Below are positions 803 through 9,368 of a DNA stretch of 26,123 nt, piece by piece. The stretch covers positions 1 to 26,123 of the IMG/VR virus record IMGVR_UViG_3300027806_000995. The stretch is one strand, 5' to 3'. Made by a program: the position numbers and the translations under genes. Source of the stretch: a virus. Each line of letters starts with the position of its first letter. The stretch's first letter is position 1. The notes under the pieces were generated by a model, which was not told where the DNA came from, searched no databases, and saw only the letters and a program-made list of their open reading frames with translations.

Positions 803-3800
803 CCGCCGAAGCCTTCCTCGACGAAGAACTCCCTTCCGCCGAGGCGTTCTTGGATGCGGCCGAGCCCGCCCCGTCCATCAGCGCGGAAGCGTTTCTTGAC
901 GCCCCCGAGGAGCCGTTGCCCTCGCCGGTGCCGACGCCCTTCGAGGAGCGCCCGACCGGCATGGTGGCGCTCGATCCTGTGCCCCAGGCGAAACCCTCGC
1001 CGCTGCCCAACCCCGCCGAGGAGCAGACGGCCAGCCTCTCCCGCGATGCGCTCGCCGATGCCAATGCCAAGCGTGGCATTTTCTCCCCCGACTCCGCGCC
1101 CTATCGCCTGATCGGCGAGCAATTCGCCATCGACCCGCTCCGCTATGACGAAGCCGCCGAGGAGTTGTGGAAGGATGGGCTCATCGACTCGGATCAATAC
1201 TACCGCATGATGAACGATGCGGTGGAGATCAAGCCCGCCGCCCAGCGCCGCCGCGCCCTGGAAACCCAAGCGGGCACCAACCCGGAACTGAAAGCCGCCC
1301 TCTACGGCCTCACCAAAGGCGCGATCCAAACTGCCGGAGCCATTGGCGTGGGCGGAGCAGCAGGAGCCGGGCTGGCTGCGACCGGCCCCGGAGCCATTGT
1401 CGGCGGCATTGCCGCAGGCACCGGCACCGCCATGGTGTTGGGCGACATGGTGGATACCTTCGCCGAAAAGCTCGCGCAGGAGAATGAAACCATCGCCTCG
1501 CTTCTCGCCGCCAAAGAACTTTTCCCTGGCTACGACACCGCCGGGCAACTCGCCAGCGTGGTGATCCCCGCTCCGTATGCCGTGAGCAAACTCAAGACCG
1601 CCGCTTCCCTCATCGCCACAGAGCGCGGTGCGGGAGAGGCGGCCAAGTTTGCGGCCCGAGTCACCGGCACGGGCGCAGGCATTGGCGCAGCGACCGACCT
1701 GGCCGTGCAAGGCGGGATGGCTGGCGTGAACCTCGCCACCGGAAACCCCGTGGATTTTTCCATGGAATCTCTCGCCGTTTCGACCGCCCTCGGCGGACTC
1801 ACGGCGGGCCTTGGCGTGCGCTCGCAGAACAAAATCTACAAGCCCGAGGAATTGGTGGGGCTGGAACGCCGGGCGCTCGATGGCACGGCGAGCTTCGAGG
1901 AATTTCGCGACTACTCCACCATGCGCGCAGCCGTGGAGACCTTGCGCAAGGATGACCGCCTGCTCTCCGCCGATGCCGTGCGCCGCGCCACCGCCGACTT
2001 CATGGGCACCCCGGCCCTTGATGTCACCGAGATCATCAACCCCCGCTTCCAACAGCAAGCCCTCGCCGATGCCGGGCTGGTGCTGCCCTACGCCGCCGCC
2101 CCCACCGCCGCGCCAGTGGCCGGAGCTCCCGTGGCCTACACCGGCCAAGCCTTCCTCGACCGTGGCGGCCCGGCCCCCGCTTTCCAAGGCGGCACAAACG
2201 CCCTGCCCGGCCCCGAGGGAATCCCCGCCCTGCCCGGCCCGCTGCCGGAAGCGCCAGCAGTTAACCCACAAATTAACCCTGCCCCCGCGCCGCTGCCTGA
2301 GTCGCCGACCGAATCGACACTCCTCGAAGCGCCGATTGTGGAATATCCCGTGGCGAATTTGAAACTCTCCAAGGATGTGCCGAACTTCAAGGAGAACGCC
2401 GACCCGCAGACCGGCGTGGTGAAGGGCGAGGCGTTGCAGGGCCAAGTGGATCGCCGGGGCATGGCTCCGATTGTGGCTTGGCGCAGGTTGAACGGCCAAG
2501 TGGAAGTCATCAGCGGACGCCACCGGCTCGACCTCTTTCGCCGCAATCAAGTGGGGACAATACCTACCCAGATTTTCAACGAAGCCGATGGCTTCTCTAT
2601 ACAAGACGCACTAACCTTAGATGCAGAACTCAACATCCGCGATGGACAAGGAACAATCAAAGACTATGCAGACTACTTCCGAAACTCCGAAATCGGCGAA
2701 CAGCAAGCAACTGAGAGAGGACTTCTATCGCGCCAGAAGGGAATATCCGGCTTCGCGATTGGCAAAGGTGGCAGCGATGATCTCTACGCAGCCTTCTCAG
2801 CGGGCAAGCTCTCCGAATCCAAGGCCGCAGCCATAGCCCTTGCCGCCCCCGGCGATGCAGAGATGCAGCGCGTGGGGATGCAGTTTGCCAAAGAGCTTTC
2901 CGCCCCGGAACTCACGAGCTTCATCGCCGTGAACCGCCGCGCCAAGCAGCCGGGAGCCAAGCAAGGCGACCTCTTCGGCAACTCGGACGACAATTTGAAT
3001 GCCGCCGTGGCGCTGGTGAAAGCCAGCCGCAAACGCATCGGCGAACTCGACGACCAAATCCTCTCGGTGAAAGGCGCGGTGAAGCGCCCCGAGGCCGCCC
3101 GCAAGATGGGCGTGGATGTGAACGACCCCGAGGCCATCCGCACCCGCATGGTGGAACTCGAAGCGCAGAAGGAGAAATACATCCGGTTCTTCGACCACCC
3201 GGAAATCCTCAGCGAAGTGCGCGCCCTGGCTTTTGGCGAGGCCGCGCCGATCAAGCCGCCGACCATTGCCACTAATGGCGAGGGCAATCTGATCGCCGAG
3301 GGCGAGATGCCTTTCAACCTCACGAGCGAACCGGAACCCGCGCCTGTCGCCATTGAACCAGTGGATGAGGACGCCGCCCGCCGCGCCGCGATCCGCAAGG
3401 CCGGTGAGGAGAACACCATGTCCCTCTTCGATGCCGGTCCGCTCCCCGCCGCCAAGCCGAAAGGCAAATCCTCTGGCTATGCCGACGCCGGGCCACTCAC
3501 GGCCCCGGCTCCCGTGTCCGCCCCAGCCGCGAAGCCGGACATGGCCACTTACTCGGACGCTCAAATCTATGCCGACTATCCCGAAGCGGTGGGCGTGGTG
3601 CGCACGAAGGGGCCGGGCTGGACAATGCCGCTCATCCTCGGCGGCACAGACAAGGTGCCGGTGATGGAGATGCCGGAGATCGTGGAGTTTTACCGCTCAC
3701 TTGTTGGGCAAGACCCGAGCGTGCGCAATTTGCGCAGTCTGGGGCTTTTCAATCCAGCCTCCGGGAATGTTTCCATCCGCCCGGACATTTTCCAAAACGA

Positions 3801-6798
3801 GCAAAGCGCCCTCATGACGCTGGCCCACGAGATCGGCCATGTGGTGAGCTGGATGGACGAGCGAGACATCCGCCTCGGCAACCTGGGCGGGCACATCATG
3901 AATGTGCAGAAGTTTTTGAAAGGATCGTTCCCGCTGGATGGAAAGAACATTGCCGTAAAGGACATCAAAGCAGAATTGATCGGCGTCTCGGAATGGTGGA
4001 AGCCCATCGACCATAAGCGTGCTCCGGCTCCGTATGTGAAATACCGACACAGCGCGGTGGAGCTGTATGCCGATGCCGTCTCGGTGTTGTTCAACTCGCC
4101 TGCCGACCTGGAGCAACGCGCGCCGAATTTCTGGAAAGCCTTCTGGAACTACGCCGACGCCCGCCCACAGGTGAAGGCGAGCTTGTTTGAAATCCAAAGC
4201 CGGATTCAGAACGGGCGGGAGGCCGTGCTGGACAAGCGCCTGGAGCGCGACTTGGCCTCTTTCAAAGCCGGGCGCGAGACTTTCCTGCGCAAGCACAACG
4301 CCGCCCAAGAGCGCCGCCGCTCGCTCACGGGCTGGTGGGAGGATGTCAAAGACCAATACTGGGCCCGCTACCAACCCCTCATTGAGTCCGCCGCCAAGGC
4401 CCGCGCCGCCGGGAAGATCACCCCCGCCGAGGAGGACGCCTACCGATGGATGACCGAGGAACACCCGCTGGCCGATGGCAAGCTGCAACTCCACCTCGCC
4501 GATATTGGCCGCCTCTACCAAAAGCTCGACGAGGCGGGCATCTCCCGCGACCTGCTCGGCCTCTCGCTGAAATACCACCGCATCGCCAACGAACGGCTCG
4601 ATGTGATGCAACAAATCGACGGTGAGATGGTGAAGGTGGGCGAGACGGGCCGGGCCGTGATGGCCAACCCTGGCGGCGAAACCGCCCGCACCGCCACCGA
4701 AATGCTCGCCAAGCTGCGCGCCTCGATGTCGCCGGAGCAGGCCGCCGCCCTGGATGAAACCCTCTCGGGCTTTCGCGCCGTGGTTTTCTCTGTAATGGAG
4801 GATGCCAATGCCTCCGGGATGTTCAGTCCGCAACTCTGGGAAACTATTAGCAATAACCGCGAGAACTACGCGGCCTTCACTCCGCTGGAATATGTGGAGG
4901 AGTATTTGCCCTCGGCCATCAAGAAGCAGATTGGAACCTTCAAGGAAATCGCCGACCCGCTCCAACAAACGGTGCTCAAGATGATCTCGATCCACCGCGC
5001 CGCTCAGAACAACCGCTTCAAGCTGGGCGTGGCCGACATGCTCCGCGAAGTCGCGCCGGAACTCATCACCGATGCGCCGATGGCTTACAACGGCAAGGCC
5101 ATGGTGCCACAGCCGCCCCGCGACAGCGATCTCGCCTTGCTGCAATGGAAGGACGCCGGGCAACTCCAGGGGATCCATATTCCCAAACGCTACGCCGCCA
5201 TGTTCGAGGACAAGAGCCCGTCGGAGCGCGATGCCATCCTGCGATTCCTCGCCACGGGATTCCAGCGGGCCGTTTACGGAGCGATCATCCGCTACAACCC
5301 GGCCTTCCAGTTTTTCATGTCCCCGGCCCGCGACCTTCAACGCTCGCTCACCAACATGCCGGGCGGAGTGAAAGGCCGGGCCAAATTTTTAATGAACCTG
5401 TTAAGCCCGCAATCTTGGGGGGCCTCGGTGGATTGGGCGCGGGGAGATATTGGGCGCTCGGCCCTCCTGCGCGAGATGGTAGAGAACGCCGCCGTGGGCG
5501 GGCCGCACTCGGCCTTTGGCGGGAAATTGCAGGGCGATGATGATGCGCTCGTGGCGATCCTGCGAAAATTCCACCTTCAAGACCAACCCACCCGCAATGC
5601 GCTCCTGCGTCCTGTGATGAGAACGCTTAAAGCCATCGAGTTTGGCGGGCAAGTCCTGCAACTCCTGCCAAAAGCCGCCGCCTATCAGGTGATGGTAAAG
5701 GATATGGGGATGCCCGCGCCGCAAGCTGCGAACTCGATCCGCAACCACATCGGCATTCCGAACTACTACAAGAAGGGCCGCAATGTCACCTCCGCCGGGG
5801 CGTTGGTGCCGTTCCTCAACATTTTTCTCCGCTCCTACGAATCGCTCTACCGCAATCTCTCGGGCAAGGAGCGCAACATGGGTGGCAAGGAATGGTGGAT
5901 CGCCTGGGCGCTGACCGGCGGTGGCCTCTACGCCGTAATGCAAACGCTCGCCCGCGAGGGAGTCTTTGGCGAAGACCTCCAGCGCCTCTACTCCCGTGTG
6001 CCGAATTGGGACATGACGAACTTCGGCATTGTGCCGCTCGGCGAAGTCTCGACCGGCGACACCGGAGGCAAGACGGTTTACCTCCGCCTGCCGCAAGACG
6101 AGGGCTTGCGCGTCATTAACGGCACGGTGGCGAAGCTCCTGCAATCTGGCATCCGCACGGCCCAAGGCGACCCGACCGCGCCAAAGCTCGGCGAGGTTTT
6201 TGACGGCATCAGCAGCCAGGTTCCCGGCGTGAATCCCGTGGTGGAAGTGGCACAGAACTGGACAACCTTCCTCGCCGGGCGCAACCCCCGCGACGATTTC
6301 CGAAACAAGAACATCCTCACCGAGGATCAATGGCTGGCCGGTGGCTGGGACGCCGCCAAGCCAATGCTGGGCTGGACGCTCGGGGCCACTGGCATCACGA
6401 ACTTTTTCAATTACGATCCCGAGGCGGACACCTTGACCGAGATGGCCATCTCCTCCACGCCGGTCTTCAACCGCCTGCTCAAGATCAGCGACCGGGGCGT
6501 TTACCAAAACGAGAAAGCCGTGGATCAAGCCGATGCCCGCGACATGGCCAAGGCGCGCCTGACATTGCCCGATTTTGTGCAAGGGCTACGCACAGAATTT
6601 AACTACCTCAAAGGCCGAGGCGACCGCCGCAGCGAGCGCGAGAAAGACCGCTACAGCGAACTTCTCCTCTGGAACCGCTCCTACCGCGACGCCATGGAGC
6701 AAGTGGAAACCTCGATGGAACAAGGCAACCGCCCCTCCGCCCGAGACGCCATCCAAACCCTCATCCAAGAAAGCCGCGACTACCGGCCCGCGAACTAA
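799..6798 (+). CDS. Large polyvalent protein with ParB-like and HEIGH metallopeptidase domains (probable ejected internal virion protein)
   Basis: A 1999-residue multidomain protein. In order: an N-terminus with three AEAFLD repeats (residues 3-8, 14-19, 29-34) and a fourth QAFLD at 450-454; a Gly/Ala-rich hydrophobic stretch near residues 180-215 that could insert in a membrane; a ParB-like domain at about 515-620 with ISGRHRLDLF near 570; a zinc metallopeptidase-like domain with HEIGH at 1010-1014 and a likely third ligand Glu1088 in AVELYADA; a long helical region; and a C-terminal segment with NPAFQFFMSPARD and hydrophobic helices, resembling the LPD38-type domain of polyvalent proteins. 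Polyvalent proteins of phages and conjugative elements are known to enter the cell with the DNA and act early against host defences or in DNA handling. Peptidase activity and ejection are inferred. Codon use drops in GC around 2556-2750, suggesting a swapped segment. The stop overlaps the convergent integrase stop. Confidence 0.9.
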   Translation: MTAEAFLDEELPSAEAFLDAAEPAPSISAEAFLDAPEEPLPSPVPTPFEERPTGMVALDPVPQAKPSPLPNPAEEQTASLSRDALADANAKRGIFSPDSAPYRLIGEQFAIDPLRYDEAAEELWKDGLIDSDQYYRMMNDAVEIKPAAQRRRALETQAGTNPELKAALYGLTKGAIQTAGAIGVGGAAGAGLAATGPGAIVGGIAAGTGTAMVLGDMVDTFAEKLAQENETIASLLAAKELFPGYDTAGQLASVVIPAPYAVSKLKTAASLIATERGAGEAAKFAARVTGTGAGIGAATDLAVQGGMAGVNLATGNPVDFSMESLAVSTALGGLTAGLGVRSQNKIYKPEELVGLERRALDGTASFEEFRDYSTMRAAVETLRKDDRLLSADAVRRATADFMGTPALDVTEIINPRFQQQALADAGLVLPYAAAPTAAPVAGAPVAYTGQAFLDRGGPAPAFQGGTNALPGPEGIPALPGPLPEAPAVNPQINPAPAPLPESPTESTLLEAPIVEYPVANLKLSKDVPNFKENADPQTGVVKGEALQGQVDRRGMAPIVAWRRLNGQVEVISGRHRLDLFRRNQVGTIPTQIFNEADGFSIQDALTLDAELNIRDGQGTIKDYADYFRNSEIGEQQATERGLLSRQKGISGFAIGKGGSDDLYAAFSAGKLSESKAAAIALAAPGDAEMQRVGMQFAKELSAPELTSFIAVNRRAKQPGAKQGDLFGNSDDNLNAAVALVKASRKRIGELDDQILSVKGAVKRPEAARKMGVDVNDPEAIRTRMVELEAQKEKYIRFFDHPEILSEVRALAFGEAAPIKPPTIATNGEGNLIAEGEMPFNLTSEPEPAPVAIEPVDEDAARRAAIRKAGEENTMSLFDAGPLPAAKPKGKSSGYADAGPLTAPAPVSAPAAKPDMATYSDAQIYADYPEAVGVVRTKGPGWTMPLILGGTDKVPVMEMPEIVEFYRSLVGQDPSVRNLRSLGLFNPASGNVSIRPDIFQNEQSALMTLAHEIGHVVSWMDERDIRLGNLGGHIMNVQKFLKGSFPLDGKNIAVKDIKAELIGVSEWWKPIDHKRAPAPYVKYRHSAVELYADAVSVLFNSPADLEQRAPNFWKAFWNYADARPQVKASLFEIQSRIQNGREAVLDKRLERDLASFKAGRETFLRKHNAAQERRRSLTGWWEDVKDQYWARYQPLIESAAKARAAGKITPAEEDAYRWMTEEHPLADGKLQLHLADIGRLYQKLDEAGISRDLLGLSLKYHRIANERLDVMQQIDGEMVKVGETGRAVMANPGGETARTATEMLAKLRASMSPEQAAALDETLSGFRAVVFSVMEDANASGMFSPQLWETISNNRENYAAFTPLEYVEEYLPSAIKKQIGTFKEIADPLQQTVLKMISIHRAAQNNRFKLGVADMLREVAPELITDAPMAYNGKAMVPQPPRDSDLALLQWKDAGQLQGIHIPKRYAAMFEDKSPSERDAILRFLATGFQRAVYGAIIRYNPAFQFFMSPARDLQRSLTNMPGGVKGRAKFLMNLLSPQSWGASVDWARGDIGRSALLREMVENAAVGGPHSAFGGKLQGDDDALVAILRKFHLQDQPTRNALLRPVMRTLKAIEFGGQVLQLLPKAAAYQVMVKDMGMPAPQAANSIRNHIGIPNYYKKGRNVTSAGALVPFLNIFLRSYESLYRNLSGKERNMGGKEWWIAWALTGGGLYAVMQTLAREGVFGEDLQRLYSRVPNWDMTNFGIVPLGEVSTGDTGGKTVYLRLPQDEGLRVINGTVAKLLQSGIRTAQGDPTAPKLGEVFDGISSQVPGVNPVVEVAQNWTTFLAGRNPRDDFRNKNILTEDQWLAGGWDAAKPMLGWTLGATGITNFFNYDPEADTLTEMAISSTPVFNRLLKISDRGVYQNEKAVDQADARDMAKARLTLPDFVQGLRTEFNYLKGRGDRRSEREKDRYSELLLWNRSYRDAMEQVETSMEQGNRPSARDAIQTLIQESRDYRPAN

Positions 6799-8686: not shown

Positions 8687-8866
8687 TCATTTTTCGTTGG
8701 TTTTTGGGTTGGTTTTTAGAAGGAGGGTTTCGGATTTTTCGAGCGCGTGCTCGAGGTCTTCGAGGTTGTATTTTGTGGCTTTGGGCTTGGCAATCTCGGC
8801 GCGGGTTTGCCGGACTGACAGGACAAGGTGCGCCAGGGCGTTATAAAGTCGGTTTTCGGTGCTCAT
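8687..8866 (-). CDS. Small helical hypothetical protein
   Basis: A 59-residue protein beginning MSTENRLYNALAHLV. I chose the ATG at 8864-8866 over a longer start (8953) for two reasons. A purine-rich GGGAGG lies about ten bases upstream, and the ATG overlaps the stop of the preceding small gene by four bases. The longer N-terminus is only the shadow of that gene. The protein is predicted to be mostly alpha-helical and charged, possibly a short coiled coil (residues 15-50). No function is recognisable. Confidence 0.6.
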   Translation of the reverse strand: MSTENRLYNALAHLVLSVRQTRAEIAKPKATKYNLEDLEHALEKSETLLLKTNPKTNEK

Positions 8867-9024
8867 GCGGCGGCCTCCCGGGGGAATAGCTCGGCTTGGA
8901 TGGGTGGCGGCTCGGGCGGGCTTTGGTTGGCGGCTGCGGGGATGTGGTCGCATATGAGATTGAAGGGGATTTCTGTTTCGAGGAATAAATTGCCTTCGCC
9001 GTGGGTGGTGATGGTGGGGATCAT
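8863..9024 (-). CDS. 53-residue protein sharing a segment with the polyvalent protein
   Basis: This short gene starts with ATG at 9022-9024 and ends with TGA at 8863-8865. It overlaps the previous gene (stop 9021-9023) and the next gene (start 8866) by four bases each, which supports its reality. Residues 3-23 contain GEGNL and PFNL and align without gaps to residues 821-841 of the 1999-residue polyvalent protein, with 15 of 21 identical. The C-terminal half is proline-rich (QSPPEPPP). There is no signal peptide or membrane helix. I infer that the shared segment is a small fold or binding motif, perhaps for a common partner. The function is unknown. Confidence 0.65.
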   Translation of the reverse strand: MIPTITTHGEGNLFLETEIPFNLICDHIPAAANQSPPEPPPIQAELFPREAAA

Positions 9025-9368
9025 TCGCCGTCCTCTCCAGTGGCGGTGGCGATGGCTTCGGCGATCTGGTCGCGGAGCTGCTCGCCTTCGGTGCCTGCTG
9101 CGTCTCGGGCGTCGTAGGTGTCGCCTATGGCTTCGAGGGCGGCGCGGAGTGCTTCGAGCATTTGCGGGGCTGCGGCAATGAGGCGGGCGTTAGCGTTTGC
9201 TTGCTTTATACTTTCCGCAACGATTGCATCCCCCGAATTTGTAACTGATTTAAGTGTGCGCCATTTAATGGCTGGGTGTTCTGCAATCCATGTTCCGCCA
9301 TTGTTTCCAATTATTGCGATGTCTGTTAAATACCACGGGCCGGGCGTGTGTTGTGTTGTTGTGCTCAT
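9021..9368 (-). CDS. HTPGPW-type conserved phage protein
   Basis: A 115-residue protein with the hallmark N-terminal HTPGPW (residues 7-12) and the conserved helix ANARLIAAAPQMLEAL at about 58-73. This pair defines a very common phage and prophage family of unknown biochemical role. The C-terminal third is an acidic helix. It is the first gene of a tightly overlapping run of five small leftward genes and is separated from the upstream DUF932 gene by 44 bp containing a perfect hairpin. The ATG is at 9366-9368, with no clear ribosome binding site. Confidence 0.85.
   Translation of the reverse strand: MSTTTQHTPGPWYLTDIAIIGNNGGTWIAEHPAIKWRTLKSVTNSGDAIVAESIKQANANARLIAAAPQMLEALRAALEAIGDTYDARDAAGTEGEQLRDQIAEAIATATGEDGE

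Follow-up and report, generated by a model that had tools for sequence, protein, structure and literature searches.

A portable two-motif module shared by a giant polyvalent protein and early phage proteins looks like a docking tag

The window analyzed here, the whole 26,123-nucleotide stretch of viral DNA, contains two genes that share a short protein segment: one encodes a giant polyvalent protein and the other, on the opposite strand, a 53-residue early protein (Table 1). The small gene is a member of a run of early genes coupled by ATGA overlaps. Its ATG overlaps the stop codon of the gene at 9368-9021, and its own stop codon overlaps the ATG at 8866. In a near relative, G001, the overlap at the start of the small gene is preserved despite a different upstream gene. 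An earlier note on this DNA had allowed for the small frame being untranslated; with both ATGA overlaps and a Shine-Dalgarno-like GGAGAGGA immediately 5' of the gene, the frame looks translated, and we consider translation very likely. Another early protein of the window, P0006 (8392-8679, minus strand), contains two copies of a FENIxAxGAGK segment, as seen also in L003.

Table 1. Genes and sequence features of the window discussed in the text
Feature	Position	Strand	Basis or remark
Polyvalent protein P0002, 1999 aa	799..6798	+	Reading frame; tblastn relatives; profile match
ParB-like domain, residues 494-809, directly N-terminal of the module	2278..3225	+	tblastn and predicted fold
QGDLFG, the giant's one QxxLF, in a loop of the ParB-like region modeled at low confidence	2962..2979	+	AlphaFold2 model
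Module copy in the giant (motif 1, helix, motif 2)	3259..3441	+	Profile match 3265-3441, E 3e-25; pLDDT <50 around the helix
Motif 2 of the polyvalent copy, TMSLF	3415..3429	+	
HEIGH, zinc-peptidase-like motif 3' of the module	3826..3840	+	
Downstream early gene, starting at the stop of the small gene	8687..8866	-	ATGA overlap; kept in L003
Stand-alone 53-aa early protein P0001 with the module	8863..9024	-	ATGA overlaps at both ends; Shine-Dalgarno-like GGAGAGGA upstream
Motif 2 of the small protein, QAELF	8884..8898	-	Fits clamp-binding consensus QxxLF (PMC12309361)
Motif 1 segment of the small protein, PTITTHGEGNLFLETEIPFNL	8956..9018	-	15/21 identity to the polyvalent copy; profile match 8875-9012
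Upstream early gene, HTPGPW protein, phrog_1273	9021..9368	-	ATGA overlap with the small gene

The giant is very large and made up of disparate domains, including a ParB-like fold and a HEIGH motif, features that place it with the DdrB-like ParB-type polyvalent proteins. The ParB-like domain resembles sequences of Shewanella phage X14 and Vibrio phages (40% identity, E 3e-50 by tblastn), and its predicted fold is similar to ParB/Noc structures (best E 7.5e-5, Foldseek on an AlphaFold2 model). In the consulted part of Iyer et al. 2017 (PMC5512222), the polyvalent proteins of phages are described as being ejected and acting in the earliest phase of infection. The DdrB-like ParB proteins in that part of the paper are likewise multidomain, with a ParB-like domain and HExxH, in a phage with head genes. 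The giant is probably injected into the host. Its N-terminus (799-906) contains three AEAFLD(A) repeats, at residues 3, 14, and 29. Similar repeats are present in the giant of L008, and the N-terminal part of the L005 giant repeats NPFADLIP. Possibly these repeats form a linear motif of their own, one that might serve, for instance, in capsid targeting.

Residues 3-23 of the small protein and residues 821-841 of the giant align without gaps at 15 of 21 identical positions; on recomputation, the coordinates and identities given in the earlier note proved correct throughout. The DNA similarity that it described also holds, as the corresponding stretches (9018-8956 on the minus strand, 3259-3321 on the plus strand) are identical at 43 of 63 nucleotides. 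Matches at the first, second, and third codon positions number 15, 19, and 9 of 21, respectively, so the likeness is mainly preserved at the protein level. The best ungapped BLOSUM62 score between the two proteins is 87, against a mean of 34 and a maximum of 45 for 60 shuffles of the small protein, and a tblastn search of the record with its own small protein matched the polyvalent segment (E 2.5e-7). The likeness is not limited to the 21 residues first described. Further along, each protein has a second motif of the form xxxLF, which reads QAELF in the 53-residue protein and TMSLF in the giant, and the reading frames of related viral contigs identify the 21 residues as the first half of a module of about 50-60 residues.

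This module is made up of motif 1, LFxExEMPFNL, a linker in which E, A, and R are often abundant, and motif 2, [Q/T]xx[L/M]F. The module is predicted to be disordered. In an AlphaFold2 model of polyvalent residues 495-894, the ParB-like region is well predicted and the module mostly has pLDDT values below 50, the exception being the linker, which is predicted to form a helix between the two motifs. The module also appears unstructured in an AlphaFold2 model of a fusion to RadC, a poor model overall (mean pLDDT 53, first 79 residues below 50).

Relatives were gathered by the DNA patterns GEGNL/PFNL and LFxxxxxPFNL, together with a search using the ParB region plus tail. G001 was the only match when viral records were searched with the small protein, and it carries both copies. 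Of 46 whole viral records, 31 contain a match to a profile (A2) built from 17 module sequences, a proportion that is no frequency because many of these records were fetched for a motif match. Eleven records have two copies, with a giant frame carrying one and a short or early frame the other; the two frames are on opposite strands in every case. In a set selected by the ParB region alone, with the window and G001 left out, an early copy accompanies the giant copy in 8 of 19 records versus 0 of 15 records that have no giant copy (Fisher p 0.0045, uncorrected for kinship). Each copy also occurs by itself. G013, G016, and G017 (about 41-44 kb) have the giant copy, and a regex scan of them found no small copy; G038 and G039 (about 40 kb, near-complete) have the early copy, and none was found in their giants. 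Early copies are present as well in phages without a ParB match. Searches by tblastn with the small protein and a 24-residue motif, short queries of limited sensitivity, gave no match in about 50,700 records of cultured phages, where two full modules were also used, or in about 72,600 plasmid records. The possibility raised in the earlier note that the segment is a ubiquitous motif is thus not borne out in either collection. One strict DNA pattern scan of bacterial genomes returned a single match, in a frame without the motif.

Within the giants, the ParB-like domain precedes the module in the window and in most other cases, and other sequence precedes it in L118, L110, L106, and L005. In one phage giant frame (L036:10901-12400), ParB comes first, then the module, then a RadC domain (PF04002, E 4.6e-31). 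A strict tie of the module to ParB was rejected, given the non-ParB sequence ahead of some copies and the early copies in ParB-less phages. A strict tie to the zinc-peptidase motif was likewise rejected, as HExxH was not found in the giant frames of L036, L038, L039, and L044. More distant polyvalent proteins (L061, L064, L066, L067, L079, L092, and L094) have another common tail after ParB, consisting of FxLxxET and an E/R-rich stretch, followed in some by FxLTGSxRxADxxxAxGQxDLF. This tail is possibly a remote version of the same module.

The position of the module differs with its carrier, being N-terminal in early payload proteins, internal in the giants, and stand-alone in the window. Stand-alone early copies are found in the window, G001, L045, L046, G005, and L053. 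As an N-terminal leader, the module is attached to RadC/JAB in L039 and L041 (Pfam PF04002, E 6e-34 and 5e-36) and, by the same sequence, in L099, L103, L107, L108, L112, and L115. It leads a common domain of no assigned family in L043 and L117, and further payloads in L040, L102, and L113. The leader is nearly identical in sequence across these differing payloads, and among the matches listed for RadC homologues of 2355 plasmid records, only the part that follows the leader matches. A second stretch resembling motif 1, GADMPFDA, is located close to the C-terminus of the early fusion protein of L043 (17109-17711) and L117 (6186-6788).

Purifying selection acts on the early copies, with dN of 0.02-0.14 and dS of 0.29-1.5 in 36 comparisons among nine early copies. 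Between the small genes of the window and G001, motif 1 is constrained (dN 0.06, dS 0.23); outside the motifs the protein changes fast (dN 0.19, dS 0.06, over few sites), and QAELF is retained. Recent duplication within each genome was rejected as the origin of the small copies, since 8 of 10 are closer to the giant of another phage and only 2 of 10 are nearest to their own. The small copies of L039-L045, for example, score 57-67% against the L118 giant versus 34-41% against their own giant. The module has therefore been exchanged among phage genes rather than recently copied in each genome.

The earlier observation is correct and understates a larger pattern, that of a recurring module. Because the module recurs on differing proteins, is selected, and is predicted to be disordered, it can be regarded as a portable linear-motif docking module, and its use as a leader on RadC and other payloads argues for docking rather than only competing. 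The small protein is best explained as this module in free-standing form, and the explanation as a whole, including the partner named below, is given a little short of an even chance. The module would bind one host partner that is useful early in infection, and proteins delivered with the DNA and those made just after would meet at one place. Judged from sequence, the likeliest candidate is DnaN, the sliding clamp of the host, or else a different replisome protein. In its free 53-residue form the module would occupy that site, favoring phage over host replication, and the fused forms would carry payloads such as RadC to it. A fuller version, in which the injected giant and the first-made proteins, free or payload-fused, gather in two waves on one host replisome protein through the bivalent motif, is proposed more tentatively. 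The suggestion in the earlier note that the free copy binds the partner of the giant fits the pairing in 11 records and the purifying selection; the superinfection-immunity or inhibitor role that it put forward would be a less simple reading.

The clamp is suggested primarily by motif 2. The clamp-binding consensus is QL[S/D]LF or QxxLF (PMC12309361, PMC3919608), and motif 2 reads QxxLF or QxxMF, in predicted-disordered regions, in about half of the lineages (QAELF, QGDMF, QGSLF, QQPLF, QVKMF, and QNDLF). In the remainder the first position is T or another residue (TPSMF, TMSLF, and IPPLF), and two module copies are without LF, so agreement with the clamp consensus varies among copies. The clamp-like motif is paired with an unrelated one: motif 1, containing PFNL, is the better conserved half of the module and matches no known clamp motif. 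A QxxLF-type peptide lies in a flexible region of both window proteins: the small protein has QAELF, and the giant has QGDLF in a loop with low pLDDT. Among 17 polyvalent proteins left after dereplication, six have such a motif 3' of ParB, versus 0.36 expected (0 of 1000 shuffles). The QTKMAF of G042 resembles QTSMAF, which PMC12309361 cites for the epsilon subunit of E. coli Pol III. A DnaB-like helicase is encoded in the window, and scanning part of the phage's frames for replication genes turned up no polymerase; the phage therefore probably uses host replication. No tRNA was found in the window. The C-terminal tails of SSB require a free C-terminus, and a resemblance of ExEIPF to these tails was set aside because the motif is internal here.

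Alternatively, the module may be a capsid-targeting tag that sends the giant and the early proteins into the virion, with the small and RadC proteins co-ejected, in the manner of the N-terminal signals of P1 DarB and T4 IPIII. An exchangeable N-terminal leader on differing payloads is built as a targeting tag would be, a 30-residue N-terminal piece of P1 DarB is enough to package a reporter (PMC9024508), and the giant belongs to a class described as ejected in the consulted part of PMC5512222. However, the giant gene and the early copies are on opposite strands, with the window's early copy sitting in a group of early genes, several copies stand alone without a payload, and the module is internal in the giants, whose N-terminus in the window has the AEAFLDA repeat (three copies), better sited for such a signal. 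This explanation is considered unlikely. The superinfection immunity put forward in the earlier note, with the free copy blocking either the polyvalent protein of an incoming phage or that protein's partner, is possible, neither favored nor simplest, and to be given only a small chance. The early, operon-encoded copy lies near the integrase of a temperate phage, early copies accompany giant copies in the ParB-selected set (p 0.0045, kinship uncorrected), and the closeness of the L039-L045 small copies to the L118 giant is expectable if rivals are the target. A pure competitor is hard to fit with the leader form on RadC and other payloads, however, and no module was found in the giants of G038 and G039, which do have an early copy.

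It is less probable again that the module is a processing or regulatory site for the adjoining ParB or zinc-peptidase domain, supplied in trans by the small protein. In the window the module does sit between ParB and HExxH, a region in which polyvalent proteins have been proposed to undergo processing (PMC5512222, consulted in part), but this arrangement is not general: module-bearing giant frames in which HExxH was not found, giants with non-ParB sequence ahead of the module, and early copies in phages without a ParB match all argue against such a role. That the small gene is a chance likeness or a decaying, non-functional copy of the polyvalent segment seems very improbable. The fast change outside the motifs between the window and G001 would fit decay, whereas the recurrence of the pairing in 11 records, the purifying selection on early modules, the preserved ATGA overlaps, and the small copies' being mostly not nearest to their own giant do not.

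The docking module favored here can be compared with several known systems. In the consulted part of PMC5512222, no linear module common to polyvalent proteins and free early proteins was found described, and RadC is described there as confined to the polyvalent proteins of conjugative elements, unlike the ParB, module, and RadC combination in the phage frame of L036. Twort gp168 and G1 gp240 act on DnaN and N4 gp8 acts on the clamp loader (PMC3594737); compared by description only, these phage proteins likewise target the clamp of the host or the clamp loader, but the putative binding segment here is common to an ejected giant and to payload leaders. The capsid-targeting sequences of P1 DarB and T4 IPIII (PMC9024508) are likewise short portable segments on differing payloads, whereas the module is also stand-alone and internal and resides in early genes. 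A limited search of the open-access literature found no description of a single linear module common to ejected giants, free early peptides, and effector leaders.

What is known of ejected polyvalent proteins is chiefly their series of catalytic domains. The module has the look of a tag that can be used repeatedly to bring different phage proteins to one partner, possibly the host DNA-copying machinery. One module peptide used as bait could reveal the target of this whole class of phage proteins, and the leader sequence may be used to find new early effectors by sequence.
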